Origin: Delftia tsuruhatensis NBRC 16741
GTDB taxonomy: Bacteria; Pseudomonadota; Gammaproteobacteria; Burkholderiales; Burkholderiaceae_C
Direction of reading: 5' to 3'
DNA length: 64,000 bases
Assembly: GCF_001571325.1 (NCBI RefSeq)
Contig: NZ_BCTO01000032.1
Coordinates: forward strand, 62,001 to 126,000
A program made the translations under genes and the position numbers. This document shows positions 26,296 to 42,848 of this stretch, piece after piece. Each line of letters begins with the position of its first letter. Position 1 is the first letter of the stretch. The notes below the pieces were generated by a model. It worked only from the letters and a program-made list of their open reading frames with translations, was not told the origin of the DNA and searched no databases.

Positions 26296-27123
26296 ATGAC
26301 CCCTACCACCGAACAAAAACGTGCCAGCTTCCGGGCCCTGCACCGCCAGGGCTGCTTTGTACTGCCCAATCCATGGGACGCCGGCAGCGCCCGCATGCTG
26401 CAGGGCCTGGGCTTCAAGGCGCTGGCCAGCACCAGCTCGGGCCATGCATGGTCGCTGGGCCGGCCCGATGGCGCCATCTCGCGCGACATGACCCTGGCGC
26501 ATCTGCGCACCCTGGTCGCGGCCACCGACCTGCCCGTGAACGCGGACTTTGAAAGCGGCTTCGGCCTGGGTCCGCAGGAGGTGGCAAAGAGCGTTCGCAT
26601 GGCCTTGGACACCGGCGTGGCAGGGCTGTCCATCGAGGATTCGACAGGCGATGCGGCCAACCCCTTGCGCAGCATCGAGGACGCCGTGGCCCGGCTGCGC
26701 GCCGCCCGCGCTGCCATCGACGAGGCAGGCGGCAGCACCTTGCTGGTCGGGCGTGCGGAGAATTTCTTCGTGGGCCGGCCCGATCTCGACGACACCATTG
26801 CCCGGCTCAAGGCCTATGCCGAGGCCGGCGCGGACTGCCTGTACGCACCCGGCATCCGCAGCGCCGAGCAGATCCGTGCCGTGGTGGCGGCCGTGGCACC
26901 CAAGCCGGTGAATCTGCTGATCGGAGGGGCCAGCGAATGGAGCCTGCAGGATGCCGAGGCCATGGGCGTGCGCCGCATCAGCGTGGGCGGCGCACTGGCG
27001 CGCGCAGCCTGGGGCGGCTTTCTGCATGCGGCGCGCTCCATTGCCGAGACGGGGCGCTTCGACGCGTTCGCCCAGGCCACGCCGGGCGCCGAGCTCAATG
27101 GCTTTTTTCAGGGCAAGGACTGA
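26296..27123 (+). CDS. Isocitrate lyase/PEP mutase family protein
   Basis: 275 aa from ATG 26296. TIM-barrel phosphoenolpyruvate mutase superfamily: LPNPWDAGSARML near the N-terminus, PVNADFESGFG (metal-binding acidic residues), GVAGLSIEDSTGD, and later GADCLYAPGI. The usual lyase active-site KKCGH motif is absent, as in the oxaloacetate decarboxylase/carboxyvinyl-phosphonate-like branch. Acts on a small 2-oxo-acid or phosphonate; substrate uncertain. Its 3' end overlaps the convergent 101-aa gene by 16 bp. Confidence 0.88.
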   Translation: MTPTTEQKRASFRALHRQGCFVLPNPWDAGSARMLQGLGFKALASTSSGHAWSLGRPDGAISRDMTLAHLRTLVAATDLPVNADFESGFGLGPQEVAKSVRMALDTGVAGLSIEDSTGDAANPLRSIEDAVARLRAARAAIDEAGGSTLLVGRAENFFVGRPDLDDTIARLKAYAEAGADCLYAPGIRSAEQIRAVVAAVAPKPVNLLIGGASEWSLQDAEAMGVRRISVGGALARAAWGGFLHAARSIAETGRFDAFAQATPGAELNGFFQGKD

Positions 27124-27413
27124 TCCGCACCGGCCTGCAGCCGCTGCGCGGTCATGACCCAGACCGCGATATCGAGCAGGGCGGCCGCGCGCTCCACCGG
27201 CGCGAGCTGCGGGTCCAGCACGCCGTCCATCTGCCGTGCCAGGGCGGACCAGCCCAGCAGTGCGGCCTGATCGGCCCAGGCCCGGCCTGCGGCCAGCAGC
27301 GGTGCGCCGGCACCCACCAGGCCTGCGGCCTGCATATCGGCCAGCCAGACCTGGCCCTGTGCCAGCCAATGGCGCAGCGGCGCCTCGGCGTTTTCGTTCG
27401 GTGCCGTGCTCAT
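27108..27413 (-). CDS. Small protein at the end of the DUF4132/YehLMPQ operon
   Basis: 101 aa from ATG 27413, which overlaps the stop of the SWIM-protein gene (ATGA). Alanine-rich helical protein (HWLAQGQVWLADMQAAGLVG, then AAALLDIAVWVMTAQRL); no motifs, no membrane helix or signal. Tight coupling argues it belongs to the system, perhaps as a small partner or adaptor. I recall no matching yeh gene. Confidence 0.7.
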   Translation of the reverse strand: MSTAPNENAEAPLRHWLAQGQVWLADMQAAGLVGAGAPLLAAGRAWADQAALLGWSALARQMDGVLDPQLAPVERAAALLDIAVWVMTAQRLQAGADQSLP

Positions 27414-29080
27414 GGCTGTTTCTCCCTGCTGCCCTGCGCTGGCGGCGGCTTCCAGGCCGTGCTGGGATGGTGCCAGTCCGTACTGTCCCGCCAGCGCACC
27501 GATGCCACGGCCATCTGCAATCGCCCGGCCACGAATTCCACGCGGCCAAAGACCTCCTGCAGCACCCGGCCGCACGCCAGCTCCCGGCGCAGGGCCTCGC
27601 CCGCCCTGCCCTGCATGCCGTGCAGATCACCAGCAAGGCATATGACGGGGCCGGAGGTTGGCAGCTGCGGTTGCAGCTCCATCGTCCAGCGCTGCAGCAG
27701 CAGGTCAGTCTGCGGCAGGCCGCTGCCGCTCACCTGCCATCGCGCCCAAAGGGGCGGCTGCTGGCGCCAGGGGTCTGCATGCAGCTCCTGCAGATGGCGG
27801 CGCAGCAGGACCTGGGGGTCGTCGGCCTCCGGCAAGGGGCCGGCCGCCTGGGCCGCCACCAGCCGGGTGGCATCCCGCGCCGAAAGGCGGCCGTCGTCGC
27901 TGACCCAGCCGTCCACCAGCACATGAGGACCTTGCAGCAGCTGCCTTGCCGTGAGGCCGCCCAGGGTTTCCGATTCCAGCGCCTGGGCAGGCTCCCATTG
28001 CGGATCAAAGCCCTCAGCGCGCGATGCCGACCAGGTCAGGAACCGGCCGCTGGCCGCATCCTGCAAGTGCACCGAAAAACCGCGCTGCCCTCCGCGCGCC
28101 AGCCACAGCTCGGCCGCCACGGCATGCAGGCACAGGCCTTGCACGCGCCGGTAGCTGCGCCTATGCACGCCAGCCAGCTCCTGCAGGGGCCGCGGCAGGG
28201 GTTGCTGGGCCAGGCCGCGCAGCAGCATCCACAGCGCGGCCAGCAGGGGCGCCACGCGCTCGGCCGCGCCGGCACGGCCCGCGCGCTCGTCGCGCAAGGC
28301 GCGCACCAGCAGGTTGAGCACGCTGGCGGGGCGCGGCAGGTCGGCCTGGCGCAGTTCGGTGGACAGTGCCTCGCCCTGGTCGAGGAAGGCCGGGCTCATG
28401 CCGGCACGGCCCTGCAGCACCCAGCCGGTCAGCCAGAGCCTCACCTGCGCCAGACGCTGCAGTGCGCCGGCTTCCAGCGCATGCGCAGGCAGCTCGGGCA
28501 TGGATGCGCCCGCTGCGCGCCGGGCCTGCAATGCCACCAGGGCGCGGTGCGCGCAGGTGGCGGCCTTGCAGCTGCAACTGGCCGCCGCCAGGCCGCCAGC
28601 ACGCGGCAGGCGCACGGTCACTTCGTCGGGATTGGAGAGTTCACCGACCAGCGCGGCCGGCGTCTCTTCCAGCACGGCCTCGAAACCCTGTGCCATCCAG
28701 CGCAGGGCCTTGCGCTGGGCAGCGCTGCCGAAGGCCCGCGCCACGGCCTCGGCATCGCCCTCCAGCCATGGCGCGATAGGGGCCTGTGCTGCCTCATCGG
28801 CCGCCCCTCCGCTGGCCAGGCGCGCGCGCAGGCCCAGCAGCAAGGCGCACAGATGGTGGCAGGGTCCATAGGCAGGGCAGCTGCATTGCAGCGTGGCAAA
28901 GCCCGCGCCGGCCAGGGTCTGGACATGGCCTTCGATATCGGCCCGGGCATGGCTGGCATCCAGCTCCCAGGCCGCCGCATCCAATGTCGCCAGGGCCTTT
29001 GCGCCTCGCTTGAGCAGGCCCTTGTTGGCCCAGTCGGCAATGGCGTCATCGTCCAGGGTGCGCAGCCATTCCTGCATCAT
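27410..29080 (-). CDS. SWIM zinc-finger protein (YehQ-like)
   Basis: 556 aa. Two SWIM-type CxCx(n)CxH motifs are visible: C66-x-C68-x5-C74-x-H76 (LQCSCPAYGPCHH) and C169-x-C171-x4-C176-x-H178 (SCSCKAATCAHR). SWIM domains bind zinc and often nucleic acid or protein. The remaining 370 residues are helical with no known fold by eye. Start overlaps the VWA-gene stop (ATGA at 29077-29080). Same position as yehQ after yehP in E. coli; function there is unknown. Confidence 0.88.
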   Translation of the reverse strand: MMQEWLRTLDDDAIADWANKGLLKRGAKALATLDAAAWELDASHARADIEGHVQTLAGAGFATLQCSCPAYGPCHHLCALLLGLRARLASGGAADEAAQAPIAPWLEGDAEAVARAFGSAAQRKALRWMAQGFEAVLEETPAALVGELSNPDEVTVRLPRAGGLAAASCSCKAATCAHRALVALQARRAAGASMPELPAHALEAGALQRLAQVRLWLTGWVLQGRAGMSPAFLDQGEALSTELRQADLPRPASVLNLLVRALRDERAGRAGAAERVAPLLAALWMLLRGLAQQPLPRPLQELAGVHRRSYRRVQGLCLHAVAAELWLARGGQRGFSVHLQDAASGRFLTWSASRAEGFDPQWEPAQALESETLGGLTARQLLQGPHVLVDGWVSDDGRLSARDATRLVAAQAAGPLPEADDPQVLLRRHLQELHADPWRQQPPLWARWQVSGSGLPQTDLLLQRWTMELQPQLPTSGPVICLAGDLHGMQGRAGEALRRELACGRVLQEVFGRVEFVAGRLQMAVASVRWRDSTDWHHPSTAWKPPPAQGSREKQP

Positions 29081-30321
29081 GAGTAACGCCCTCCCTGCAT
29101 GGCACAGGCCAGCCAGTCCACCAGATGGTCGGGCGTCATGGCGCCGACCTGCGCACCGCGTTCCACCAGTTGCGCAGCCAGGTCCCGGTCGTAGTCGGGA
29201 TGGGCGCGGCGATCCAGGGCGGCCAGCACCAGCACGCGCGCACCGCTGGCGATCAGCCGCTCGGTCTCGGCGATGACGCGGGCCTCGTCATGGCCTTCGT
29301 AGAGATCGGTGATCAGCACGATCACGCTGCGGCGCGGCGCGGCCAGTTGCCCGGCCGCATGCGCCAGGGCGGCACCGATATTCGTGCCTCCGCCCAGTTG
29401 CGCGCCCAGCAGCAGTTCTTCGGGCGCATGCAACTGGCTGGTGACGTCGGCCACCTCGTCGGCGAACAGCAGCACATGGGTGCGCAGGGCGCGCACGCGC
29501 GCGAAGATGCTGCCCATCACGGCGCTGTGGATGACGGATTCGTACATTGAGCCGCTCTGGTCCACCAGCAGCCACAGGTCCCAGGTCAGGCGCTGCGCCT
29601 CGTTCTCCCTGAAGAACAGGCGCTCCAGCACCAGCACCTGCTCCTCGCTCTGGTAGTGGCGCAGGTTGTGGCGCAGGGTGCGCGGCCAGTCCAGGTCGGC
29701 CATCTGCCCCTGGCCCCAGCTACTGCGGCGCCTGCGCCGCCGCCCGAAGGCCGAGCGCACGCGCGAGGAAAGCCGTGCCTGCAGATCCGCCACCACGCGT
29801 GCCACCAGCCGCCGGGCCTCGTCCAGCACCTGCACGGGCAGGCTGGCGCGCACGGCCATCAGCGCGGCCACCAATTCAATGCTGGGCGTGGCCTGGGCCA
29901 GTACCTGGGGGTCGCCGAGCAGGCCGTGCAGCCCGTAGCGCGACAGCGCATCACGCTGCAGCGTTTCCACGGCGCTGTGCGGAAACAGGTCGCGCACCTC
30001 GCCCAGCCAGTGCACGGCCTGGGGCTCGGGCACGCCGCTGCCGCCCTGGCGCGCGGACAGCCCGCCCGTGCCCTGCCAGGCGTCGGTGCCTGCACCGTCG
30101 GGCTGCTCGCGCAGGCGGTGCTCGCGCTGGTAGAGATAGTCCAGTGCCGCGTCGCGGCGCGCATCGGCGCCATCGAGCGGCTGCGCCGCAGCCAGGGGCT
30201 GGGCCGCCTCGGGCCCGAGGATGAGGCGCCAGCGCCGCAGGGTGGCGGCATCGATTGCCTGTTCCTGCATTGGCGGCTCGTGCATTGGCGATTCGTGCAT
30301 TGGCGGATCTTCCCGGCTCAT
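29077..30321 (-). CDS. VWA-domain protein, CoxE/YehP-like
   Basis: 414 aa. The N-terminal 20 residues hold near-repeats (PPMHESPMHEPPM). A helical middle region (VHWLGEVRDLFPHSAVETLQ) and an arginine patch (RRRRRR) precede a C-terminal von Willebrand A domain with a complete MIDAS: D254-Q-S256-G-S258, a Thr in GGGTNIG, and the Asp in LITDLYEG. In MoxR systems such VWA proteins act as metal-dependent adaptors of the AAA ATPase. Coupled by ATGA to both neighbours. Confidence 0.9.
   Translation of the reverse strand: MSREDPPMHESPMHEPPMQEQAIDAATLRRWRLILGPEAAQPLAAAQPLDGADARRDAALDYLYQREHRLREQPDGAGTDAWQGTGGLSARQGGSGVPEPQAVHWLGEVRDLFPHSAVETLQRDALSRYGLHGLLGDPQVLAQATPSIELVAALMAVRASLPVQVLDEARRLVARVVADLQARLSSRVRSAFGRRRRRRSSWGQGQMADLDWPRTLRHNLRHYQSEEQVLVLERLFFRENEAQRLTWDLWLLVDQSGSMYESVIHSAVMGSIFARVRALRTHVLLFADEVADVTSQLHAPEELLLGAQLGGGTNIGAALAHAAGQLAAPRRSVIVLITDLYEGHDEARVIAETERLIASGARVLVLAALDRRAHPDYDRDLAAQLVERGAQVGAMTPDHLVDWLACAMQGGRYS
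30266..30310 (-). repeat. Three 15-bp repeats at the start of the VWA gene
   Basis: Units at 30266-30280, 30281-30295 and 30296-30310, each encoding MHE(S/P)P-like peptides and each containing an in-frame ATG. They offer alternative start codons and a site of copy-number change. Confidence 0.7.
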
Positions 30322-32780
30322 GACAGTCCCCAGGGATGCAGCAGCCGGCCCACCTGGGCCGCCAAGGCGCGGCTGTGCGCCAGGGCCTCGTCCGATGGCA
30401 GGTGCACGCAGGCCAGCGTGGTTGCGCCGGGTGGCGTGGCCGCGCCCGACAAACCGGCCAGCCGCCCGGCCAGTTGCCGCAGTTCGGCACGGGTCAGCTG
30501 GGCAAAGGCCAGCCGCAAGGCCGGCAGGCCGGCCAGGAAGGCGTCTTGCGGCCAGTGCGCAATGCCGTCGCTGAGCAGGCGCAGCAGCGGCGGATGACTG
30601 AGCAGCCAGCCCTTGGCCACGCGCACAAAGCCCTGCAGGTACTCGCCCATGGCGGCAGCATCGACCTGCGCCAGGCCCAGCATGGCGCGCAGGGCGGCAT
30701 CGGTCTGCGCAATCTGCCAGCGGCCGGCCATGCTCAGGATGCCGGCCGTGGCGCCGCGCACGCGCGCGGGCGTGCTGTCGGCGCCTGCCTCATGCAAGGC
30801 GGCACAGGCATCGTGGAACAGGCCGGCGTCGGCCCAGGGCACGGCGCGGCAGACCATGCCGTGCAGATCGGCCAGGGCATCCAGGGCCTGTGCCTGCTGG
30901 GATGCATCGCCCTCGCCCAGCCAGGGCAGGCGCAGGCAGGCCTGGGCAAAGCAGCGCCGCAGCAGCGGCAGCAGGCGCGCCAGGCCCACGCCGCCCAGCG
31001 CATGGCGGGCCTCGTAGGCCAGGGCCAGGCAGCCGGTGGCGCGGGCCAGGGCCAGGGCGTCGTGGCTGCGCTCCATCCAGGCCTGCACGGTGTCCAGCAC
31101 CTGCTGGGCAATGCCGTCCAGGCCCATGACCAGCACTTCCAGCACGCGCTGCGCCGGCTCGGTGTCGGCGGTCTGCGACAGCCGCTCCAGCACGCGGTGG
31201 ACAGCGGCCTCTTGCAGGCTGGAGCCGTGGCGCATGGCCTCGGTGAGTGCCACCGTGGTCTCGACCTGCCAGCCCAGCGTCCAGACCTCGCGCACGCGCG
31301 CCAGGCCGGTGCCCGCCACAAAGTCCGGTCCCGCCAGGCATTGCGCATAGGGCACGCCCAGGTAGCGCAGCCGGTGCAGTCCCTGCGACAGGCGGCGGTG
31401 GCGGGCGCTGCGGTAGATGTCCAGCTCCTTGCGCACGGGTGCGGCAGGCCGCACGGGCAGGCGGTGGCGCAGGCAGAAGGCCTGTACATCGACCAGCAGC
31501 GGGGCGGCCGGCGCGTTGGGTGGCAGCTGGCCGTAGTCGTCGGCGTCCAGCAGCCATTGACCAGTCTGCTGCCCGGCCTGCGGCTCCATAGGCTGCGGAC
31601 GCAGGGCCTGGGCATGCTCCTTGAACACGGCGCTGTCCAGCGCTTCCAGCAGCTCGGCCCGGCCGCCGTGGCAGGCGCGCAGTGCAGCCAGGCCATGGGC
31701 CAGGCGCACGGCCTCTGCCGCGTCGGGCAGGCTGGCGGGCAGGCCCCGGGCACGCAGGCCGTTCACGGTGCGTGCCGCCATCTCGGGCCAGGCCTGGGCA
31801 TCGGGTTGCGAGGCGCCCTGCTCCAGCGCCTGCCAAACGCCCTGGTAGTAGCCGGGCATGGGCATGCCGGCCGCGTAGCCGCTGGCACGCTCCAGCCGCT
31901 GCAGCGTGTAGGGGATGAGATGCACGCCCACATCGATGGGCTGACCGGCCGCAGCCGGACGCTCGGGCGCCGACAGGCCAGCGGTGATGCCAGCCACGAT
32001 GCCCGCCACATGAAAGCCGCCGCAGACCACCAGGCAGCGCCCGCCTTCGGCCAGGGCCTCGCGGACCTGGGCGGCCATGTGGGCCTCGCGGGCCCTGTCT
32101 TCGGCATCAGGGCCCGCGCCGCCCGCTGCCTCGTCCCGCTCGCGCAGCAGCTGGCTGAAGGCCAGCACGCCGGCAAAGTACGCCTGGGGCGAGGCGTCCT
32201 CATTGCCCGATTCGTAATGCCGGTCCCACCATTCGTCGAAGTCTCGGCAGCCGCCGGCCTGGATGAGGCCGGCCAGCACGTCGGGCGCGCGCCGCGAGGG
32301 TTCGTCGGCCAGCAGGGGTTCGGGCGCGCAGGCGAAGTAGTCCAGCTGCGCGGCCTGGGCCAGCCGCGCCGCATAGGGCAGGTCGATGAAGCGCACATGG
32401 CTGCGCAGCCGCACCGCCTCGCGCAGGGCCACCCATTCAGGAGAGAAGGCCGCAAAGGGCACATAGCAGCGGCAGCGCCAGTCGTCCTCCAAAGCGCCAT
32501 TCGCGCCATTCGAGCCATTCGTTTCATGTGCGCCATCGCCGCCTGCCACGGTCGCATGCAGGTAGGCCGCCAGCGGCGGACGCGCCTGGGCGTGCTGCAG
32601 CGCAGGCAGCAGGGCATCGAGCTCGCCCGGGCCTTCGATCAGCACGTGGCTGGGCTTGAACTCGCGCATCAGCGCGCGCAGGTGGTGGGCGCAGCGCGGG
32701 CTGTGGTGGCGCACGGGCACCAGGCGCAGCTGCGGCAGCGGCGCCAGCCAGGCGATGGCCTCTGCGGCCTCAGTGCTCAC
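30318..32780 (-). CDS. DUF5682 protein (YehM-like)
   Basis: 820 aa from the GTG at 32780, which overlaps the AAA gene by 11 bp; a second GTG at 32822 is possible. N-terminal marks of the family: LRLVPVRHHSPRCAHHLRAL, SHVLIEGPGELD, YVPFAAFSPEWVALRE, RFIDLPYAARL and later CLVVCGGFHVAGI. The two histidine-containing motifs and the acidic residue recall EreA/ChaN-like proteins, so an enzymatic role is possible; this is inference. The C-terminal half is helical. The stop overlaps the VWA start (ATGA). Confidence 0.88.
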   Translation of the reverse strand: MSTEAAEAIAWLAPLPQLRLVPVRHHSPRCAHHLRALMREFKPSHVLIEGPGELDALLPALQHAQARPPLAAYLHATVAGGDGAHETNGSNGANGALEDDWRCRCYVPFAAFSPEWVALREAVRLRSHVRFIDLPYAARLAQAAQLDYFACAPEPLLADEPSRRAPDVLAGLIQAGGCRDFDEWWDRHYESGNEDASPQAYFAGVLAFSQLLRERDEAAGGAGPDAEDRAREAHMAAQVREALAEGGRCLVVCGGFHVAGIVAGITAGLSAPERPAAAGQPIDVGVHLIPYTLQRLERASGYAAGMPMPGYYQGVWQALEQGASQPDAQAWPEMAARTVNGLRARGLPASLPDAAEAVRLAHGLAALRACHGGRAELLEALDSAVFKEHAQALRPQPMEPQAGQQTGQWLLDADDYGQLPPNAPAAPLLVDVQAFCLRHRLPVRPAAPVRKELDIYRSARHRRLSQGLHRLRYLGVPYAQCLAGPDFVAGTGLARVREVWTLGWQVETTVALTEAMRHGSSLQEAAVHRVLERLSQTADTEPAQRVLEVLVMGLDGIAQQVLDTVQAWMERSHDALALARATGCLALAYEARHALGGVGLARLLPLLRRCFAQACLRLPWLGEGDASQQAQALDALADLHGMVCRAVPWADAGLFHDACAALHEAGADSTPARVRGATAGILSMAGRWQIAQTDAALRAMLGLAQVDAAAMGEYLQGFVRVAKGWLLSHPPLLRLLSDGIAHWPQDAFLAGLPALRLAFAQLTRAELRQLAGRLAGLSGAATPPGATTLACVHLPSDEALAHSRALAAQVGRLLHPWGLS

Positions 32781-33894
32781 GGCCGCCTGCGACAAAGTCC
32801 TGCCAAGCCGGCTGCCCTGCACGCTGGCGTGCCACCACGCGCAGGTATTCGGCGAAGCGGCGACGGTCCTCGTCGTCGTCCTTGATCACCGTGCCCAGCA
32901 GGTGGCGCGCCAGGTGGGCCGGACCCACGCGCTCCTGCCCGAAGTACCAGCACTGGCAGGCGGCGTTGAAGGCCACGTCGATGGCCTCGGCCGTGGACAG
33001 CACGGTGCCCGGCCGCTCCACGGCCGTGCCCTCCACGCTGCCGCTGCGCAGCTCCTGGAAGGCCGTGGCCAGCAGGGCCAGCACATCGGGCGCGACGGTG
33101 GTGCCGATGCGCTGCTGCGCCAGTGCGCGGCCCACCTCCTGCCCTATCAATGCGGCCTGCGCGGCCACGCCTTCGAGCGGGCGCATGGTCTCGAAGTTGA
33201 AGCGGCGCTTGAGCGCGGCCGACATCTCGTTGACGCCGCGATCGCGCAGGTTGGCCGTGGCAATCACATTGAAGCCCGGCCGTGCCAGCAGCCAGGGCTG
33301 CTCGTGCTTGAGTTCGGGAATCTGCAGCAGCCGGTCGGAGAGCACGGGCACCATGCAGTCCTGCACTTCGGTGGAGCAGCGCGTGATCTCCTCGAAGCGC
33401 AGCAGCCGCCCTTCGCCCATGGCGCGGTGCAGCGGGCCGGGCACCAGGGCCTCGGGGCCGGGGCCGTCACGCAGCAGCAGGGCGTAGTTCCAGCCATAGC
33501 GGATCTGCTCCTCCACCACGCCGGCACCGCCCTGCACGGTGAGCTTGCTGTCGCCGCTGATGGCGGCGGCCAGCAGCTCGGACAGCAGGGACTTGGCCGT
33601 GCCCGGCTCGCCCACCAGCATCAGGCCGCGCTGGCCGGCCAGGGTGACGATGGCGCGTTCGACCAGGGCATCGTTGCCGTGGATCTTGCGCGCGATGGCC
33701 GGCCCGCCGCCGTCAGGTTCCGCACCGCCCAGGATGAAGCGCCGAACGGAGCGCGGGCTCAGGCGCCAGCCGTCGGGGCGCGGGCCCTGGTCGGCGGCCT
33801 GCAGGGCCGCAAGTTCCTGGGCGTGGGCCATCTCGGCCGGCAGCCGCTGGGCGGCAGGTTCCGGGGTGGGCGCTGCAATGCGTTTGGTGGCCAT
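32770..33894 (-). CDS. MoxR-type AAA+ ATPase (YehL-like)
   Basis: 374 aa from ATG 33894, sharing one base with the upstream stop (TGATG). Walker A GEPGTAKS (95-102), Walker B region LLRFEEI (164-170), sensor 1 IATANLRDRG with Asn215, and an arginine-rich second region (AALKRRFNFE). MoxR ATPases work with VWA proteins to remodel or insert cofactors into targets; the YehL branch is one of the recognised MoxR groups and lacks a defined substrate. Central motor of the operon. Confidence 0.92.
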   Translation of the reverse strand: MATKRIAAPTPEPAAQRLPAEMAHAQELAALQAADQGPRPDGWRLSPRSVRRFILGGAEPDGGGPAIARKIHGNDALVERAIVTLAGQRGLMLVGEPGTAKSLLSELLAAAISGDSKLTVQGGAGVVEEQIRYGWNYALLLRDGPGPEALVPGPLHRAMGEGRLLRFEEITRCSTEVQDCMVPVLSDRLLQIPELKHEQPWLLARPGFNVIATANLRDRGVNEMSAALKRRFNFETMRPLEGVAAQAALIGQEVGRALAQQRIGTTVAPDVLALLATAFQELRSGSVEGTAVERPGTVLSTAEAIDVAFNAACQCWYFGQERVGPAHLARHLLGTVIKDDDEDRRRFAEYLRVVARQRAGQPAWQDFVAGGREH

Positions 33895-36821
33895 CAGTCG
33901 CTCTCTTTGGTGCTGGCCGATTTGGCGGCGATGGCCGCGAACTGCGCCATCAGCGTGGCCTGCAGCGCGCGCGGCCACTGCTGCGGCTGAAGCCGGGGCC
34001 AGCGGCCATCCTCGCCGCGGTGGCTGCTGTCATAGACCACGGCGTGGGCGATGTCCACGCGGTGGTCCAGTTCCATGAACGGCATGTAGCGCCCGTGGTG
34101 AAGCTCGATGTACAGCTGCGGGCCCGCCAGGTCCAGCCTGTGCTCGTAGATGCCGGGGCCGTCTTCCACGGGGCCAGGGCGGTAGTTCCACTTGGCCAAC
34201 AGGCCGGACAGCGCGCCCTGGCGTATCTGCAGCGGGCCGGCAGGGTGCAGGGCATGGTTCTTCCACTGGCTGGCGTCGGGCAGTTGCGCACCCGCGCCCA
34301 GTTGGTCGATCAGCGGCTGCAGCTCGTAGTCGGCCAGGCAGGTGCGCCAGGCCTCAACCTCGCCCGCTGCGGCATCGACCGGATGCCAGAGCAACACCTG
34401 CGCATCGTCGGGCAGCTCCACGGCATCGTCTGCGGCATCGAGCAGGGAAAAGTCCTCGGCAATGCGAAAGCTGGCGCCCTGCTCCAGCCGCCAGATCAGG
34501 GTGCGGCCCATGATGCGCAGCAGGGGATGCTGCAGGAACAGGCGGCGCCAGCGCGGGACGGACCAGCGCTGTCCCGTCATGAAGGCGGTACCCATGCGCG
34601 GCGCCTGCTGCCTGGCGATGGCCTTGACGCCAGCGGCAACGGTCTTGAATTCGGCCTGTGCCGCATTCCACTGAAGGCGCAGCGATTCGTCCTTGAGCGC
34701 AGGCAGGGTCTTGGAGGCCTTGCCCTTGTCGCCCACCACGCGCAGGCTCAGGTCGCCCTGCAGCTGCAGGCGGTAGCGCTGCGGGCCCACCTCCAGCACC
34801 AGGCCTTCGCCGCCCAGGCCGAAATCGGGCGTCAGCTCGTCATACAGCTCGATCAGGCTCAGGCCGCGCCGCTGGGCGGCTGCCTCCAGCGCGTCATGCG
34901 CTGCCGCAATCACCAGGTCCTTGAGCTTGCGCGAGGTGGACAGGGTCTGGACCTGGGACAGCGCGTACAGCGTGTCCAGCGCACCGAGCTGCTCCACGGC
35001 GATGATGGCGCGCAGCTTCTTGCTCCAGCCCCAGGCCTTCACGGCGGCCACCAGGGTCTGCACCAGGCGGTCGTCGACATGGCCGTTGGCCAGTCGCAGC
35101 GCCCAGCGCGCCTTGGGCTCGCCCTCCAGGGCCACCCAGGCATTGACCAGGTGCAGGGACAGCTGGGCGCGGCTTTCGGCCGGCACATGGGCCAGCAACT
35201 GCTCCACCAGCGGCGGCAGCTCTTCCTCGGCCGTGGCCACCAGATGCAGCACGGTGCGGGCCGCATGCTCGGACAGCGGCGCGAACAGGGCCAGGGTCTC
35301 TGGCTGGTCATAGGCCTTGATGCTGCTGGAAAAGCGCTTGAAGCGCGCCACGCGGGCCTCCAGTGCGTCAAGCGGCACCCGGCCCCCCTCCCCCTGCGCC
35401 ACGGTCAAAGTACCCGGCACTGGCACACCCAGGGCCAGCAGCCGGCCCTCGACCATGCTTTCGGAGCCCAGGTCCAGGCCCGTGCGCAGCAGCGCCTGCA
35501 GCAGCGGTGCGACCCCGGGATCGGGGTGGACCAGCAGGATGTCGCGGCAGGCCAGCTGCATCGCCTTCTCGCGCCGCTGCAGCCAGGCGTTGGACTCGAA
35601 GACAGCGCCTACGGCCTGCGCATCCAGTCCCTGCATGAAGCGCGCCACCGCTTCGCGCAGCGCCCGCGAGCTGCTGGCAGCCAGCAGTTCGCCCAGCAGG
35701 GGCAGCCGGGCATGCAGCATGGCCGGGTCCAGCTGCGCCAGCAGCGGGGCCAGGCGCACGGTGGGAATCTCGCGCAGATAGTCGGGCTGCTCGGCCAGCA
35801 TCTGGTTGAGCAGGCCGATGAAGGGCTCGATCCGCGATTTCTGCAATATGCAGCGCAGCAGATGGGGCAAAAGCTCCGGGTAGCGTGCCTTCCAGATCTG
35901 CTGGGCGACCACCGCATCGAAGTGGTACTTGGGCTGCCATCCTTCGATCCAGGCGACAAAGGGTGCGGAATCCTCCCGCACCAGGCGGTCGAAAATGGGG
36001 ATGAAGTAGTCGGCCGGCTCATGGTCCGCCCTGCCCAGCAGCAGGTTGACCAGTTCCAGGCGCCGCTGGGCATCGGCGCCGAGGTCCCAGCGCAGCGCGA
36101 TCAGGCCCGGGTCTTCGTTGATGGGCTTGTCGTCGAACCAGTCGGGATGGCGGCGGTAGAAGTCGTACCAGGGCGCGCAGCGCTGCGGGTGCGGAACGTC
36201 GCTGTGCCGCGTCAGGTAGACATCGCGGATGTCGGCATAGAGCGCGCCACCGCGCTCGGCCAGCTCCATCAGGTCCTGGTCGTCCAGGCTGCCCAGCAGC
36301 AGCTTCCAGTCGGCTCTGTCATACCCGCCACCGGACTGGACGTTCAGCTCTGCGGCCCAGTCCAGCAGCTGCATCACCCGTTCACGGCTGATGCCCGGGT
36401 ACCAGAGCCAGCCGAACATGTCCAGGATGCGGATTTCACGGTAGTCGTTGTCGCCGTCCGGCGCAGGTGGACGGGCCAGGCTGGCGCGCGCCATCTGCTC
36501 GAACTCGGCCGCAAGCTCGGGGCTATGGCGTGGAATGTCGCCGTCCAGGCTGCCGTCGATCCTGCACCCGAAGGGGATGGTCTGCCGCGCGAAGGCCAGC
36601 CACAGGTCATGGTCATGGGTCCAGGGCAGATCGAAGTTGCCCAGGGCGCGGATGGGGTTGGAATAGTCGTCGAAGGCCTTGCGCGTGAAGGCGCCCACTT
36701 CGTCATGCCGGCCCGCGCGCATGCGGCTGGCCAGCACCTGGACCAGTTCGGCGGTTGGCAGCGAGGCGCTCAGTTCCTCGAGCGTGGCCTGGTCGGTGTG
36801 TTCTAGGGTCGAAGAGTTCAT
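33894..36821 (-). CDS. DUF4132 protein, third tandem copy
   Basis: 975 aa from ATG 36821 (MNSSTLEHTDQATLEEL). HEAT-like helical N-terminal two-thirds, then the conserved DUF4132 C-terminus: FLQHPLLRIMGRTLIWRLEQ, FRIAEDFSLLDA, QVLLWHPVD, LADYELQPLIDQLG, and the tail motif PGIYEHRLDLAGPQ. No signal peptide, membrane helix or WGR domain seen. Directly precedes the AAA gene. DUF4132 proteins include E. coli YehI and MolR; activity unknown. One of three paralogues; the lack of a gap to the AAA gene suggests this copy is its nearest partner. Confidence 0.9.
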   Translation of the reverse strand: MNSSTLEHTDQATLEELSASLPTAELVQVLASRMRAGRHDEVGAFTRKAFDDYSNPIRALGNFDLPWTHDHDLWLAFARQTIPFGCRIDGSLDGDIPRHSPELAAEFEQMARASLARPPAPDGDNDYREIRILDMFGWLWYPGISRERVMQLLDWAAELNVQSGGGYDRADWKLLLGSLDDQDLMELAERGGALYADIRDVYLTRHSDVPHPQRCAPWYDFYRRHPDWFDDKPINEDPGLIALRWDLGADAQRRLELVNLLLGRADHEPADYFIPIFDRLVREDSAPFVAWIEGWQPKYHFDAVVAQQIWKARYPELLPHLLRCILQKSRIEPFIGLLNQMLAEQPDYLREIPTVRLAPLLAQLDPAMLHARLPLLGELLAASSSRALREAVARFMQGLDAQAVGAVFESNAWLQRREKAMQLACRDILLVHPDPGVAPLLQALLRTGLDLGSESMVEGRLLALGVPVPGTLTVAQGEGGRVPLDALEARVARFKRFSSSIKAYDQPETLALFAPLSEHAARTVLHLVATAEEELPPLVEQLLAHVPAESRAQLSLHLVNAWVALEGEPKARWALRLANGHVDDRLVQTLVAAVKAWGWSKKLRAIIAVEQLGALDTLYALSQVQTLSTSRKLKDLVIAAAHDALEAAAQRRGLSLIELYDELTPDFGLGGEGLVLEVGPQRYRLQLQGDLSLRVVGDKGKASKTLPALKDESLRLQWNAAQAEFKTVAAGVKAIARQQAPRMGTAFMTGQRWSVPRWRRLFLQHPLLRIMGRTLIWRLEQGASFRIAEDFSLLDAADDAVELPDDAQVLLWHPVDAAAGEVEAWRTCLADYELQPLIDQLGAGAQLPDASQWKNHALHPAGPLQIRQGALSGLLAKWNYRPGPVEDGPGIYEHRLDLAGPQLYIELHHGRYMPFMELDHRVDIAHAVVYDSSHRGEDGRWPRLQPQQWPRALQATLMAQFAAIAAKSASTKESD

Positions 36822-36844
36822 GGATTCAGGGGTTCTGGAGGGAG

Positions 36845-39829
36845 TCAAACCTGGGCTGCAGCCGCGCCCGCAGCACGCGAGGCCAGGGCCTGGAGCATGG
36901 CGCACAGCGATGCCTGCAGCGGCAGCGGCCATTCGGCCGGGGGCAGCAGGCGGTCGGCGGCCATGTCGCGCAGGGCAAAGCCTTCGATGTCGATCTCATG
37001 GCCGGGCTCGTAGTACGGCATGGCCGCGCTGTGCAGCAGTTCCACGCGCCAGTGCTGCACGGCAAAGTCCCGCAGGTGCAGGTAGATGCCGGGGCCATCG
37101 CACACGGGGCCGGCATGAAAGCGCCATGGCCCTGCCAGGCCGTCCAGCGCCTGCTGCGTGAGCCGTATCGGTGCCAGGGGCTGCAGCAGTTCCTGCTGCC
37201 ACTGGCTGGACAGCGGCAGGTCGGCGGGCGCATCGACCTGCTCGACCAGGGCCTTGAGGCCGTAGTCGGCCAGGCATTCGCGCCACTGCGCACGCTCCTG
37301 CTCGGTGGCCTGCGCGGGGTGCCACAGGGCGATGCGGCCCTCGGCCGGCAGTTGCACCGCGTCGCTCTCGGCATCGACCAGGGACAGGTCCTCGGCAATG
37401 CGCAGGCTGAACGGCTGGCCGGCCGCGGGCTCCACCCGCCAGACCAGGCCCTGGGCCACCACGCGCAGCAGCGGGTGTTCCAGGAAGAGGCGGCGCCAGG
37501 TGGCCAGCGGCCAGTGCCGGCCCAGCATCAGGCAGGACTGCAGGCGCGGCGCCTGCTGCTGCAGCACGGCCTTGATGCCCTTGGACAGCGTCTTGAGCCG
37601 CGCGGCGGCCGCCTCCCACTCCGTGCGCAGGCCCTCGTCGGCCAGGGCCGGCAGGCTGCGCACCAGCTTGCCGGCCGGCGTGCGCAGGCGCAGCGACAGG
37701 TCGCCCTGCAGCAGCACGTCATAGGTCTGCGCGCCCACCTGCAATTGCACGCCCCGGCCCAGGTCGAAGTCCGGGGTCAGCTCGTCGCCGAGGTCGGCCA
37801 GCGCCATGCCGCGCCGCGTGGCGGCCTCGGCCAGCACGGCCTGTGCAGCGGCCAGCACGCTGGGCTTGAGCGTCTTGCCGGTGGCCAGGGCCTGCACGCA
37901 GGACAGGGCATAGACCGTGTCGAGCCGGCCCAGCTGCTGCAGCGCGACCACGGCGCGCTCCTTGCGCGTCTTGTGCCAGGCCAGGGCGGCCGAGGACAGC
38001 ACATCGACGATGCGGTCGTCCGCCGCGCCGGGCAGCAGCTTGAGCACCCAGCGTGATTCGGGCGCGCCATCGGCAGCCACCCAGTGCTGGACCAGGGCCA
38101 GGGCCAGCCGCGCGCGATTCTCGGCGCTGGCCTGGGCCAGCAGTTGGCGGGCCAGCGCAGGCAGCTCCTGCGGGCTGGTGGCCGCCAGGTGCAGCAGCGC
38201 ACGCGCGGCCTGGGCGGACAGGGGCGCGAGCAGGTCCAGCAGCGCCGGCTGGTCCAGCGCGGCAATGGCGGGCGACAGGCGCTGCAGGCTGACGGCCTGG
38301 GCTTCAAGATCTGCCAGGGAGCCGGCACCATCGCTGCCTGCCGGCGCGGCCTCGCCGGCAGGTGGCCTGGCTGCGTCCGCAACCGGGGCTGCGGCACCCA
38401 GATCCTTCAGGCGCGCCTGCACCGGGCCTTGCTCGGCCACGTCCAGCAATCCACCGGACAGCAGTGCCGACAGCAGGCTGCCAGACGCCGGATCAGGATG
38501 GGCCACCAGCACATCGCGGTAGGCCAGCACCAGGTTCTTGTTGGGCTTGGCCAGCCAGCCGGCGGCCTGGGGCGCATCCACGGGCAAGGCAGACAGGGCC
38601 TGTGCCAGCGCCGCACGCAAGCCCTTGGAGGCACTGCTGGAGGCGGCCTTGCCCAGTTGCGGCAGCAGCCGCTGCAGCGTGTCCACGCGCAGCACGGGCA
38701 GCAGGTGCGTGAGCGGGCCGGCGGCCAGCCGGGCCAGGTCGCCAGGGCGATCGGCCAGCAGGGTCTCGGCCACCGGGGCGTAGCCGGCGCGGTCGGATTC
38801 GTGCTTGCAGCCGTCTGCGCAGGCCGGCAATAGCAGCGGCAGCAGGGCCGGCCACCGGGCGTCCCACAGCCGCTGCGCCACGACGGGATTGATCGCCAGG
38901 TGGCCCAGTTGCTTGAACCAGGCGGCCAGGGGCGCAGCGTCGGTCTGCAGCATGCGCTCCACCAGGGCACGGTCATGCGGCCAGTCATCGTCCGAGGCAA
39001 AGCACAGGGCCTTGAACAGGTCCTGGGCCAGCAGGTCGCGGCGCGCGGCATCGGCCGTCTCCCAGCGCGATGCGATCAGCACGGGCTCGGGCAGGCGCAG
39101 TTGGTCAAGCACGGCGGGGAATTGCGCAAAAAAATCCCGCCACAGCGCCCAGCGCTGCGCTGCAGGCCGCGTGCGCTGCAGCGGCAGCTGGCGTTGGACG
39201 ATGTCGCGGCTGAGCTGGCCGCCGCCGTCCTCGATGGCCATGGCCAGCAGTTCGGGCTCGGGCAGCTGGTGCAGCAGGTGCTGCCACTGGCAGTAGTACT
39301 GCGCGCCGGGCGCAATGCCGGCCTTTGCGCTCAGTTCCCGCGCCCAGCGCAGCAGGGCGGTGATCTCGGCACTGGACATGCCTTCATGGCCCAGCACGCC
39401 GAACACCTGCCTGAGCACGAGGTCGTAGCCATCGCGCAGTCTCCAGGGCTGGTGGGTGCGGCTGCCCCAGTCATCCAGCCAGGCGCGGGCCAGTGCCGTC
39501 AGCTCTGCGGTCAGCTCGGCACTGCGCCGGGGCACGCCCGGGTTGCCTCCATAGAACTGTCCCAGCGGAAGGCTGATGCGCGCCAGCGCCAGCCACAGCG
39601 CGTGGTCGCGCTGCCAGGGCGCATGCTCGACGGGCAACTGGTGCAGCCGCTCCTGGCACAGGCTGCTGCTGTCGCGCAGGAAGTCCGCCACCTCGGCATC
39701 ACGCCCCTGGGCCAGGCGCTTTGCCAGTTCGGCGGCAAAGGCCGGCATGCCCTCGCGCCCGGCCGGCGCGGCCGTGTGCAGTTCGTACAAAGCCTGCAGG
39801 GGAAGCGCTGCTGTCTCGTTGTTGCTCAT
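36845..39829 (-). CDS. DUF4132 protein, second tandem copy
   Basis: 994 aa from ATG 39829 (MSNNETAALPLQALYEL), 23 bp ahead of the third copy. Same architecture: long alpha-solenoid-like N-terminus, then TWRRLFLEHPLLRVVAQGLV, LRIAEDLSLVDAE, IALWHPAQ, LADYGLKALVEQVD and PGIYLHLRDFAVQHW. It is the most divergent of the three by eye (for example ADYGL where the others read ADYEL). Carries a Gly/Ala/Pro-rich insertion near the middle (ARPPAGEAAPAGSDGAG). Confidence 0.9.
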   Translation of the reverse strand: MSNNETAALPLQALYELHTAAPAGREGMPAFAAELAKRLAQGRDAEVADFLRDSSSLCQERLHQLPVEHAPWQRDHALWLALARISLPLGQFYGGNPGVPRRSAELTAELTALARAWLDDWGSRTHQPWRLRDGYDLVLRQVFGVLGHEGMSSAEITALLRWARELSAKAGIAPGAQYYCQWQHLLHQLPEPELLAMAIEDGGGQLSRDIVQRQLPLQRTRPAAQRWALWRDFFAQFPAVLDQLRLPEPVLIASRWETADAARRDLLAQDLFKALCFASDDDWPHDRALVERMLQTDAAPLAAWFKQLGHLAINPVVAQRLWDARWPALLPLLLPACADGCKHESDRAGYAPVAETLLADRPGDLARLAAGPLTHLLPVLRVDTLQRLLPQLGKAASSSASKGLRAALAQALSALPVDAPQAAGWLAKPNKNLVLAYRDVLVAHPDPASGSLLSALLSGGLLDVAEQGPVQARLKDLGAAAPVADAARPPAGEAAPAGSDGAGSLADLEAQAVSLQRLSPAIAALDQPALLDLLAPLSAQAARALLHLAATSPQELPALARQLLAQASAENRARLALALVQHWVAADGAPESRWVLKLLPGAADDRIVDVLSSAALAWHKTRKERAVVALQQLGRLDTVYALSCVQALATGKTLKPSVLAAAQAVLAEAATRRGMALADLGDELTPDFDLGRGVQLQVGAQTYDVLLQGDLSLRLRTPAGKLVRSLPALADEGLRTEWEAAAARLKTLSKGIKAVLQQQAPRLQSCLMLGRHWPLATWRRLFLEHPLLRVVAQGLVWRVEPAAGQPFSLRIAEDLSLVDAESDAVQLPAEGRIALWHPAQATEQERAQWRECLADYGLKALVEQVDAPADLPLSSQWQQELLQPLAPIRLTQQALDGLAGPWRFHAGPVCDGPGIYLHLRDFAVQHWRVELLHSAAMPYYEPGHEIDIEGFALRDMAADRLLPPAEWPLPLQASLCAMLQALASRAAGAAAAQV

Positions 39830-39905
39830 GGTCTGTGGAGTCTTCGGTGATGGGCGATCGGCCGGCCAACGTTTCAAGGGAGCAAAGGTTCACAAAGACA
39901 AGGGC

Positions 39906-42848
39906 TCAGGCAGCCGCCTTGGCCGCCAGGGCCAGCCACTGGCCTTGCAGCGTGGCCAGCAGCGGCTTGGGCAGCCGCGCCGGGTCGGCGCTGGCCCCGT
40001 AACCCTTGCTCAGGTCGTGCACGCGCAGGCCTTCCACGGCCACGGGCAGGCCCAGGTCCAGGTAGGGCGGGAAATAGCCGTGCGACAGCTCCAGGCTCAG
40101 CTCCAGCGCGGGCAGGCGCCACACATGCTCGTTGATGCTGGGGCCATCGCCCACGGGGCCGGGCCGGTAGCCGAACTTCTTGAGCATGGCGCCGAGCTGC
40201 TCCTGCGCCAGCGTGATCGGCGCGGGCGGCAGCAGCATGCCGTTCTTGAACTGGCCGGGCGCTGGCTGCTCGGCGCAGGCGCCCAGCTGGTCGACCAGGG
40301 GCTCCAGCTCATAGTCGGCCATGTAGGCCTGCCAGGCCTCGCGCTCGCCGGGCTGGGCCGTGGCCGGGTGCCAGAGGCTGATGCTGCAGCCAGCGGGCAG
40401 GGTCACGGTTTCATCCTCCACATCGACCAGCGAGAAATCCTCGGCCAGGCGGAAGCTGGTGCGCGCCAGGCCCGGCGCATCCTCTGCGCGCCAGATCAGG
40501 CTGCGCCCCACGATGCGCAGCAGCGGGTGGGCCACGAACAGCCGCTGCCAGCGATCCAGCGGCCAGCGCTTGCCGCTGACCAGGGCCGCCAGCATGCGCG
40601 GCGCCTGTTGCTTGACCACGGTCTTGAGGCTGGTGGACAGGGTCTTGAGCTGCGCGGTAGCGGCCTCCCATTCGGGCTTGAGCGCCTCGTCCTTGACCGC
40701 AGGAATGGTCTTGCTGGCCTTGTTCCTGTCGTTGATGACGCGCAGGCTCAGATCGCCCTGCAGCTCCACGCGGTAGCTGTGCGGCCCGACCGTGACCGTC
40801 AGGCCCTGGCCCAGGCCGAAGTCGGGGGTCAGCTCGTCGAAGAGCTCGGGCACGCTCATCTTGCGGCGGGCAGCGGCAGCGCGCAGGGCGCTGCGCGCCG
40901 TGCGCTGCACCTGGTCCTTGAGCGAGCGCGATTCGGAGATCTCCTGCACGCGCAGCAGAGCGTAGAGGCTGTCCACCTCGCCCAGATGCTCGACAGCGGC
41001 GGCCGCGCGCTGCAGGCGCGGGCGGTTCCAGGCCTGGACGGCGGCCACCAGCGCATCGACCACGCGGTCATCGGCATGGCCGGGCAGCAGCCTGAGCGCC
41101 CAGCGCTGCTTGGGCTCGCCCTCGCAAGCAATCCATTGCTGCACCAGGGCCAGCGCCAGGCGGGCACGGTTGTCGGCCGGAATGCGCGCCAGCAGCTCGC
41201 CGGCCAGCGGCGGCAGGCCGCCTTCGGCAATGGCGGATACGTGCAGCAGCACGCGGGCCGCGTGCTCGGACAGCGGCGCGCACAGCGCCAGCAGCTCGGG
41301 CGTGTCGAAGGGCTTGATGGCCGCGCTCAGGCGCTTGATGGAGGCGATCTGGGCTTCCAAGTCCACGCCGCCAGCGGCAGACGCTGGCGATGCGGCATCC
41401 GCCTGGCTTTCTTCCGATGCCGAGGCGCCCTGCCCGGTCAGGCCCAATTGGTTCAGCCGCTGCTGCACGCTGCTGGCCGAGGCCGCATCCAGCTTGCCGC
41501 CGGCCAGCAACTGCGCCAGCAAGGGACCGACGGCGGGGTCGGGGTGGGCCAGCAGCACGTCGCGGCAGGTCAGCAGCAGGTTCTTGGGCGGCTTGTTCAG
41601 CCAGCCGGCATCCACCAAGCTGGCCAGCGGAATATGGGCGGCCAGGCCGGCCATGGCGGCGCGCAGGCCCTTGGCGCTGCTGCCTGCGATGAGCGGGGTC
41701 AGGGTGGGCAGCGTGGCCTTCAGGCTGGCGGTGTCGAACGCGGGCAGCACATTGACCAGGTCCTTGACAGGCACCTCGGCCAGATCGGCCGGGCGGCGGG
41801 TCACCAGTTCGCGGATCGCGCTGCGGTAGCGGCGCAGCTCGTCCTCGCGGTCGCAGTGCTGGGCAATGGCCGGCAGCAGCAGGGGCAGCAAGGCGGCATC
41901 GTCCTGCTTCATGACATGCATGGCCAGCGCCAGGCTGATCCGATAGCCGCCGTTCTCACGCAGCTGCCTGGCAAAGGGCGCGGGATCCTCGGCCACCAGG
42001 CGGTCCAGCAGCTGCAGCGCACGGGTACGCTCCCCGCCCTGGGCATGGCCCAATTGGCCCATCAGGGTGCCCGCCAGTTCCTCACGCCGTGGGGCATCTG
42101 CGCTGGCCCAGCGCTGCTCTATCAGGTCCGGATCGCCTATGTAGGTCTGGTCATACAGCTCGGGATGCGCGGCAAAGAAGCCCATCCAGGACTTCCAGCC
42201 CTGCCCCTTGGGCTGCTTGGGTTGGCGCTCTTCGCGGTAGTGCACTATCACGTCGGCGAACAGCTTGCCGCCCACGGCGGCGTAGCGCTGCAGGTCGGCA
42301 TCGTTCAGCTGGGCGATCAGCCGCTTCCAGGGCGCGTGGTACTCGGTGTCGGGCTTGTACTCACCTTCCTTGCGCAGCGCCAGCGTCCAGTCCAGCGTGG
42401 CCGTCACTTCCTCGTAGGGCATGCCTGGATAGCAGAGCCAGGGCACCAGGTTGCCCAGCACCATGCCTATGCCTTTGAAGACCGGCAGATCCGCGCTGCG
42501 GGCATGGGCCAGCCATTGCTCGGCCATCACGCGCACTTCGGCGGCCACCTTGGCATTGGTCAGCTTCTCGCTGAGCCCTGCCGGCGCATGGCCGCGCGGC
42601 ACCGTGAGCCGTGCCAGGGCCAGCCAGCGCTCACCGTCATGTGTCCAGGGCGATTCGCTGCTGTTCAGGCGCCCCAGCATGTAAAGGCAGCGCTCCTCGC
42701 AATCACGCAGGAAAACCTGCACCTCATCGGCCCGCCCGTCATGAAGCCGGGCATCAAGTTCGGCGGCAAAGGCCTCTTCGCTGAGGCCTTCGTCCAGCCG
42801 GTCATAGAGATCGCTCAGGGAAGCTGCGTGAAGATCGGTAGTGCTCAT
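39906..42848 (-). CDS. DUF4132 protein, first tandem copy
   Basis: 980 aa from ATG 42848 (MSTTDLHAASLSDLYDRL); the frame is open to 43046 but the extension is not conserved-looking. No Shine-Dalgarno precedes this ATG. Contains WQRLFVAHPLLRIVGRSLIW, FRLAEDFSLVDVE, ISLWHPATAQ, MADYELEPLVDQLG and PSINEHVWRLP. A Ser/Ala-rich linker (GASASEESQADAASPASAAG) splits the solenoid. First gene of the operon, so its upstream region should carry the operon promoter. Followed by a 76-bp gap before copy two. Confidence 0.9.
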   Translation of the reverse strand: MSTTDLHAASLSDLYDRLDEGLSEEAFAAELDARLHDGRADEVQVFLRDCEERCLYMLGRLNSSESPWTHDGERWLALARLTVPRGHAPAGLSEKLTNAKVAAEVRVMAEQWLAHARSADLPVFKGIGMVLGNLVPWLCYPGMPYEEVTATLDWTLALRKEGEYKPDTEYHAPWKRLIAQLNDADLQRYAAVGGKLFADVIVHYREERQPKQPKGQGWKSWMGFFAAHPELYDQTYIGDPDLIEQRWASADAPRREELAGTLMGQLGHAQGGERTRALQLLDRLVAEDPAPFARQLRENGGYRISLALAMHVMKQDDAALLPLLLPAIAQHCDREDELRRYRSAIRELVTRRPADLAEVPVKDLVNVLPAFDTASLKATLPTLTPLIAGSSAKGLRAAMAGLAAHIPLASLVDAGWLNKPPKNLLLTCRDVLLAHPDPAVGPLLAQLLAGGKLDAASASSVQQRLNQLGLTGQGASASEESQADAASPASAAGGVDLEAQIASIKRLSAAIKPFDTPELLALCAPLSEHAARVLLHVSAIAEGGLPPLAGELLARIPADNRARLALALVQQWIACEGEPKQRWALRLLPGHADDRVVDALVAAVQAWNRPRLQRAAAAVEHLGEVDSLYALLRVQEISESRSLKDQVQRTARSALRAAAARRKMSVPELFDELTPDFGLGQGLTVTVGPHSYRVELQGDLSLRVINDRNKASKTIPAVKDEALKPEWEAATAQLKTLSTSLKTVVKQQAPRMLAALVSGKRWPLDRWQRLFVAHPLLRIVGRSLIWRAEDAPGLARTSFRLAEDFSLVDVEDETVTLPAGCSISLWHPATAQPGEREAWQAYMADYELEPLVDQLGACAEQPAPGQFKNGMLLPPAPITLAQEQLGAMLKKFGYRPGPVGDGPSINEHVWRLPALELSLELSHGYFPPYLDLGLPVAVEGLRVHDLSKGYGASADPARLPKPLLATLQGQWLALAAKAAA

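Follow-up and report, generated by a model that had tools for sequence, protein, structure and literature searches.

Two architectures of MoxR-DUF5682-VWA loci, and a DUF4132 operon of Delftia tsuruhatensis that may encode a motor for a predicted hydrolase

Results and Discussion

The operon considered here lies in a 64,000-nucleotide stretch of the genome (6.6 Mb) of Delftia tsuruhatensis NBRC 16741, contig NZ_BCTO01000032.1, positions 62,001 to 126,000 of the forward strand (G000:C32 in our numbering); this whole stretch is called the window below. Loci that combine MoxR, DUF5682 and VWA genes occur in two architectures, which are new here. In type B, to which the operon belongs, the large partner is DUF4132, and in type A it is DUF5691, while the residues of a predicted active site in DUF5682 are kept in both. 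The best reading overall, in which our confidence is evenly divided, is that such operons encode a motor controlling a scaffold-bound predicted hydrolase.

Gene organization of the operon

A preliminary description of the window had placed eight minus-strand genes at 27108-42848, and these were all recovered. In the order of transcription they are:

39906-42848, minus strand: D1, DUF4132 protein of 980 residues; Pfam PF13569, 101 bits
36845-39829, minus strand: D2, DUF4132 protein of 994 residues; PF13569, 93 bits; 42% identity to D1
33894-36821, minus strand: D3, DUF4132 protein of 975 residues; PF13569, 102 bits; 44% identity to D1
32770-33894, minus strand: MoxR-type AAA+ ATPase, YehL-like, 374 residues; AAA_5, 114 bits; Walker A GEPGTAKS
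30318-32780, minus strand: DUF5682 protein, YehM-like, 820 residues; PF18934, 371 bits
29077-30321, minus strand: VWA protein, CoxE-like and YehP-like, 414 residues; VWA_CoxE, 156 bits; metal ion-dependent adhesion site DQSGS / GGTNI / ITD
27410-29080, minus strand: SWIM zinc-finger protein, YehQ-like, 556 residues; PF04434, 20.6 bits; two CxC..CxH motifs
27108-27413, minus strand: small protein of 101 residues, the final gene of the operon; no Pfam match

The Pfam calls for seven of the proteins exceed the curated cut-offs, that for the SWIM protein narrowly (20.6 against 19.6 bits), and both CxC..CxH motifs are legible in its translation. The small protein belongs to no known family in the Pfam scan, and the NCBIfam scan of the eight proteins gave only matches far under cut-off. 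The GC content at third codon positions, 0.74-0.87, agrees with all eight frames. With the likeliest starts, five of the seven junctions overlap, by 1, 11, 4, 4 and 4 nucleotides, and D1 is separated from D2 by 76 nucleotides and D2 from D3 by 23; the six overlapping junctions counted previously would need a longer start at D2/D3. The same five gene families recur at other type-B loci, so the arrangement is not due to chance.

Two architectures

Three genome samples were searched for DUF5682: phylum (349 genomes, 12 with a match), family (299, 32) and genus (53, 33). The Pfam scores form two bands, A at or above about 650 bits and B at about 297-392 bits; two outliers stand apart, G243 with a row of 19 bits and G395 with a gene split into pieces that score 652 and 190 bits. 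A contig scan with one DUF5682 sequence gave five loci, and an alignment-based protein search returned 64 proteins as against 63 earlier. The phylum and family samples contain 22 A and 22 B genomes; stretches were compared for 21 of the former (all but G407, which is 65% complete) and for all of the latter. The 31 type-B loci are those of the 22 sampled genomes, the five loci of the contig scan, three from genomes of the genus that were detected initially by their DUF4132 (G356, G383, G384) and that of Escherichia coli MG1655. L109 and L110 were removed as duplicates of L006 and L004, and L049-L052, with DUF4132 and no DUF5682, lie outside this count. Profiles iterated from the proteins of the window, L036, L053 and L008 were run on every open reading frame of the loci.

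The order in type B is DUF4132 (one to four copies), MoxR, DUF5682, VWA, SWIM, and DUF4132 is found upstream of MoxR in 27 of the 31 loci. In L008 it is downstream of all the other genes of the set, in G151 it separates DUF5682 from VWA, and in G167 it is on a second contig together with VWA and SWIM. G414 has two copies on either side of MoxR-DUF5682, with VWA and SWIM visible in a longer slice, and G476 (C1) has six matches scattered on one chromosome, none of them at the DUF5682 locus. Two VWA frames stand side by side at that locus (L105).

The order in type A is SWIM, DUF5691, MoxR, DUF5682 in all 21 loci, DUF5691 preceding MoxR in each, with VWA next in 20 (none was seen in L117). The genome of the window has one locus of each type, the type-A operon being:

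G000:C24:82000-101999, genes 7625-15862, minus strand: L036, SWIM-DUF5691-MoxR-DUF5682-VWA, without DUF4132

The two types share homologous MoxR, DUF5682 and VWA proteins, and their SWIM proteins are related by profile comparison (P 7e-7). However, in type A DUF5691 replaces DUF4132 and the SWIM gene comes first instead of last. The preliminary description was right that the genes belong together; it overlooked this second architecture and the enzyme-like character of DUF5682.

In samples drawn by DUF5682 alone, DUF4132 was present in 22 of 22 type-B genomes and in none of 19 type-A-only genomes (four of the phylum sample, taken as the same 349-genome draw with agreeing handles, and 15 others). 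Dispersal of the genes in most genomes had been named as the outcome that would count against a common system. It is not what was found: DUF4132 occupies the same stretch in 20 of the 22, a second contig in one and a place elsewhere in one. In the phylum sample DUF4132 occurs in 8 of 8 type-B genomes and in 2 of the 341 remaining ones (Fisher p 9e-15); G007 and G200 of this sample have DUF4132 without DUF5682, and G154 has two extra DUF4132 genes distant from its B locus. The genus sample divides by score band into 30 A, 7 B and 4 with both among 53 genomes, DUF4132 being found in exactly the 7 B genomes. The corresponding numbers for the family sample are 19, 16 and 3 among 299, and the co-presence in these three genomes indicates that A and B are not mutually exclusive.

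A and B fall on opposite sides of one branch in the trees of DUF5682, MoxR and VWA, with a support (SH-aLRT, approximate likelihood ratio test) of 100. These are quick LG+G4 trees of 52, 52 and 50 sequences, respectively, with roots for drawing only, and the MoxR tree is limited to DUF5682-linked sequences; the subfamily name "YehL" follows the accessible text of PMC3893208. Long end branches were flagged (for example L008, L044 and L047), and none crosses the A/B branch. The proteins of the window sort with E. coli (L053, a B row) and away from type A in all three trees.

Predicted structure of the DUF5682 protein

The model of the DUF5682 protein (mc490831c3b37, pLDDT 89.7) shows C-terminal helical repeats and an N-terminal domain that appears to be TIKI/TraB/EreA-like. 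With moderate confidence, the N-terminal domain resembles hydrolases of this fold. The residues His25, His26, Glu49, Arg231 and His257 do not vary among the 52 loci, and 95-96 of 96 aligned homologues have them. The conserved His, Glu, Arg and His follow the order of the EreC residues given in the accessible part of PMC7979712. The EreC site has E47 and that of RRSP has 2His/2Glu, and the E47A change is reported in the same text to lower the rate of EreC. DUF5682 lacks this glutamate before the first His: all 52 loci have V or I three positions ahead of His26. The ExxH of EreC corresponds to RHHSP in DUF5682, or to RHHGP in type A. However, the glutamate does not define the superfamily, because a TraB relative has GTIH. 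The His/Glu/Arg/His residues are shared with the TIKI/TraB/ChaN/EreA superfamily, and the predicted fold may be shared as well; the long C-terminal helical-repeat part and the place in a MoxR-VWA operon are features of DUF5682 itself. DUF5682 is likely to be an enzyme and is a predicted hydrolase.

A search by sequence for solved relatives of DUF5682 gave weak rows only, the best (E 0.01) being a designed protein. The top Foldseek row, ZSWIM8 (E 7e-3), was set aside as a helical match with a TM-score of 0.18 and a root mean square deviation of 27.8. A natural fusion of DUF5682 and VWA, in operon order, is found in P0046. Three DUF5682 proteins, P0011, P0019 and P0022, are named "4-aminobutyrate aminotransferase" in UniRef; Pfam disagrees, and the name is probably a misannotation.

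The three DUF4132 proteins

The AlphaFold model of D1 (m323cf8fe0227, pLDDT 87.6, pTM 0.62) is an alpha-solenoid over residues ~1-672 followed by an alpha/beta C-terminus. The PDB matches for the fold are helical-repeat proteins, and the structural claim is limited to the solenoid; by sequence, solved relatives of DUF4132 gave weak rows only (best E 0.25). The DUF5691 copy of L036 has HEAT matches below cut-off. Homology of DUF4132 and DUF5691 was also considered and was not detectable by profile comparison (P 0.064).

In a tree of 51 DUF4132 sequences, D1, D2 and D3 each cluster with their counterparts in L004 and L092, and further orthologues are found for D3 in L006 and for D1 in L005, L006 and L007. 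This grouping across Delftia shows that the duplications predate these Delftia species. One DUF4132 copy is present at 17 of the 31 type-B loci, two to four at 13 and none at one, pieces of one broken gene being counted as one. The identity of the window proteins to those of L092 (genome G399) is 78, 64 and 76% for D1, D2 and D3, and 92, 80, 81 and 76% for MoxR, DUF5682, VWA and SWIM, respectively. The ratios of nonsynonymous to synonymous substitution rates (dN/dS) for the same pair are 0.30, 0.52 and 0.37 for D1, D2 and D3, respectively; the remaining large genes have 0.11-0.25 and the small gene 0.36. Over all genes and five relatives the pairwise values range from 0.11 to 0.72, a range that includes rows pairing paralogues (D2 against L005 and L006, D3 against L005) and an L007 gene shared by D2 and D3.

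The triplication is old, optional and under purifying selection, which is weakest on D2. It had been proposed that it diversifies recognition. The paralogues are 42-44% identical and old, a single copy serves at the 17 loci mentioned, and dN/dS stays below 1, which does not bear this out, even though D2 is the fastest of the large genes against L092 and the value of the small gene is as high as 0.65 in the comparison with L004.

The WGR domain is absent from D1-D3. It is fused to DUF4132 at 13 loci, that of E. coli YehI among them, and many B loci are without it. DUF4132 occurs together with PF24879 in P0182 and P0185 (one of them from Streptomyces) and also with PF18991 in P0185, which suggests a further DUF4132 context.

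MoxR, VWA and SWIM motifs

All 52 loci have the Walker A motif G.PGTAKS of MoxR, and at least 50 of them have ATAN. None of the 52 matched the search pattern for Walker B; at least 50 of them share R-x-E-E columns, which suggests that the pattern was wrong. In VWA, DQSGS is present in 49 of 50 rows and GGTxI in all 50. Of 30 type-B SWIM frames, 20 have two CxC..CxH motifs and 10 have one; of 21 type-A frames, 18 have one and 3 have none.

Comparison with the E. coli yeh region and other systems

The comparison with E. coli made in the preliminary description holds: in MG1655 yehI, yehL, yehM, yehP and yehQ are successive on one strand and in the same order; yehK separates yehI from yehL, and the pseudogene yehH precedes yehI. 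The yeh region thus shares with the window the order DUF4132, MoxR, DUF5682, VWA, SWIM and the same side of the A/B branch. However, E. coli has one intact WGR-DUF4132 gene (yehI) besides yehH and yehK, and a separate WGR gene, yehF, whereas in the window all three DUF4132 genes are intact and lack WGR, and the 101-residue gene comes last. No function is assigned to yehI-L-M-P-Q in the literature passages searched, most subscription journals lying outside. In the same full-text search DUF5682 and DUF5691 were not mentioned, DUF4132 appeared in 3 papers, and A/B architectures were not described. The accessible texts of PMC8533742, PMC11674859, PMC3893208, PMC9334617, PMC7159879, PMC7979712, PMC6254334, PMC10060162, PMC7824862 and PMC10910872 contain no description of these architectures or of DUF5682 as a TIKI-fold protein.

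CO dehydrogenase is among the enzymes served by MoxR-VWA pairs such as CoxD-CoxE and RavA-ViaA. These pairs resemble the window in having a MoxR AAA+ gene and a VWA gene in one operon (PMC3893208), and known pairs remodel or mature client complexes (PMC3893208, PMC7159879). They differ in serving respiratory enzymes, and in the accessible parts of these two papers they are not associated with DUF4132, DUF5682 or SWIM. The MoxR-vWA ternary conflict systems (Kaur et al. 2020, PMC7159879) likewise combine MoxR, vWA and a further distinctive component, but as far as that text is accessible this component is VMAP, iSTAND, FtsH or a beta-propeller. Its main text does not mention YehL, SWIM, DUF4132 or WGR. 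The window MoxR is not of the bpMoxR type (19.5 bits, cut-off 27), and no Pfam match to VMAP, iSTAND or FtsH was seen in the eight proteins, as far as Pfam has models of these. Nor do the dN/dS values show any sign of the hypervariable, diversified effector of conflict systems.

Flanking regions, distribution and loss

The operon is flanked by a PEP-mutase gene (26248-27120, plus strand) on one side and an alaX-like gene (43241-43963, plus strand) on the other. One further feature lies upstream of D1, in the gap that separates the operon from the divergent alaX-like gene:

43105-43121, no strand assigned: perfect palindrome CTTGACAGGCTGTCAAG

The palindrome is a possible candidate operator. 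Its 15-base core occurs in 1 of 195 loci (L110, 1856-1870) and is absent from L092; the shuffle figure of 0.01 uses a pattern derived from the same sequence and hence is no independent test. No LexA-type box of the consensus CTGT-N8-ACAG was found in the window, no sigma-70-type promoter upstream of D1 and no Rfam family.

The DUF5682 protein shares 91% identity with its counterpart in Delftia acidovorans NBRC 14950, and D1 shares ~90% with proteins from several named Delftia; the relatives in the clade of the window come from Delftia, Ectothiorhodospira, Pseudomonas and Pleionea. The 101-residue gene has relatives in L004-L007 and L092 and a weak one in L008. In the Delftia genome G350 (94% complete) both operon flanks lie on one 423-kb contig and the operon is missing (L187, G350:C28, ~6500-6740). 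The match on the PEP-mutase side reaches window position 27182, 75 bases inside the 101-residue gene, with a second short match at 27256-27296 as another remnant of that gene, and the other flank restarts at window position 43113, 38 bases past the end of the first match. Because six loci from three genera share the 101-residue gene, the gap is read as a deletion of ~16 kb, and an insertion at the other loci is less likely. On the deletion reading, the operon is dispensable. By score G350 has a type-A DUF5682, and it has no DUF4132 match.

A yehM match is present in 5284 of 5426 complete E. coli genomes (97%; at least 80% covered in 5166) and a yehI match in 5283 (97%; 5177), a near-universal presence unlike that of most defence genes. 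According to the accessible text of PMC9334617, a resistance transposon is inserted in the metG/DUF4132/yeh region of an ST131 sublineage, so clinical E. coli strains can live with a disrupted DUF4132 region. The patchy distribution in the phylum sample fits horizontal spread with loss. In a plasmid collection of 72,556 records 33 match DUF5682 and 19 match D1; among the 30 DUF5682 rows listed, six records exceed 4 Mb and are probably chromosomes. One of 50,697 phage records matches DUF5682. This record, MT835988.1, is an unannotated 14-kb "Bacteriophage sp." with a DUF5682 relative at 10911-12746 (27% identity over 80% of the query), whose source may be the phage itself or contaminating bacterial DNA.

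Proposed function

The operon would encode one machine, in which the MoxR AAA+ ring and its VWA partner remodel or load a large helical-repeat scaffold, DUF4132 in type B and DUF5691 in type A. By acting on the scaffold, the ring and VWA could place or arm DUF5682, the predicted hydrolase. The SWIM protein is probably a tether or a targeting factor of the complex, which it may bring to nucleic acid, and the three DUF4132 paralogues are probably alternative or mixed scaffolds for one motor. Remodelling of the DUF4132 giants by the ATPase-VWA pair, as proposed earlier, is plausible. An action of the ring on the scaffold is the simplest account, because the large partner changes with the type and the active site of DUF5682 is kept in both. 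The physical assembly, the hydrolase activity, its substrate and the direction of control we infer.

The MoxR-VWA pair might instead be a maturation factor that activates one metabolic or respiratory enzyme complex, with DUF4132, DUF5682 and SWIM as assembly helpers and a TIKI-like domain that binds a ligand or cofactor without cutting. MoxR proteins are described as maturation chaperones in the accessible text of PMC3893208, NorQ-NorD being a further parallel beside CoxD-CoxE and RavA-ViaA, and the VWA protein best matches the CoxE-like family. ChaN, of the same fold as the TIKI-like domain, binds haem (PMC7979712, accessible part), and an operon found in most E. coli genomes yet lost in one Delftia genome would suit such a role. 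However, no enzyme gene recurs beside the operons (116 flank frames match 105 Pfam families, the commonest in 4), and the invariant His, Glu and Arg residues suit catalysis at least equally. We consider this explanation rather doubtful. A genome-stress machine, which would bind DNA through WGR and SWIM and remodel or cleave proteins at damaged DNA or stalled forks, is less probable still. The WGR-DUF4132 fusions and the SWIM proteins of both types point in this direction, as does the Deinococcus radiodurans DUF4132 gene drA0166, strongly upregulated on DdrO depletion (PMC8533742, accessible part), but the DUF4132 proteins of the window lack WGR and the window has no LexA-type box of the consensus given above.

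The preliminary description had also suggested defence, and an anti-phage or conflict system akin to the published ternary systems appears to us the least probable explanation. It could account for the patchy phylum distribution (12 of 349 genomes) and for the DUF5682 and DUF4132 relatives in the plasmid collection. The accessible literature adds that MoxR-vWA pairs power proposed conflict systems (PMC7159879) and that some are CRISPR-linked (PMC10910872). However, the eight proteins match no family of PADLOC-DB 2.0.0 at E 0.01, yehM is present in nearly all E. coli, no hypervariability is seen, and the mobile collections hold a single phage record and several probable chromosomes. In the flanks of the B loci, 23 PADLOC families match at least one of the 116 frames, each in at most 3; these frames were chosen by length, may include false genes and were scanned without a control set. 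RT_UG29, a DnaG-like model, mad3 (best E 5e-37) and AriA match 3 frames each, the RT_UG29 and DnaG-like rows probably reflecting three DnaG primases; MzaA (best E 6e-78) and mad8 match 2, and viperin and PtuA 1. Some of these matches are good and single loci do adjoin defence-like genes, but no common partner emerges, and a defence role is not supported.

The motor with a scaffold-bound predicted hydrolase may be carried further, tentatively. The loci could represent an undescribed class of ATP-gated intracellular hydrolase, in which a MoxR-VWA ring arms a TIKI-fold enzyme on an exchangeable solenoid scaffold, the scaffold setting recognition and SWIM the targeting; one genome might run two such machines with different scaffolds, which that of the window appears to do, and E. 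coli YehM would be a TIKI-fold member under MoxR control, possibly a regulated protease. If this is true, the MoxR-VWA chaperones would gain an enzyme-gating task. The named residues of DUF5682 and the two versions of the scaffold turn an anonymous, near-universal cluster of E. coli into a testable function.

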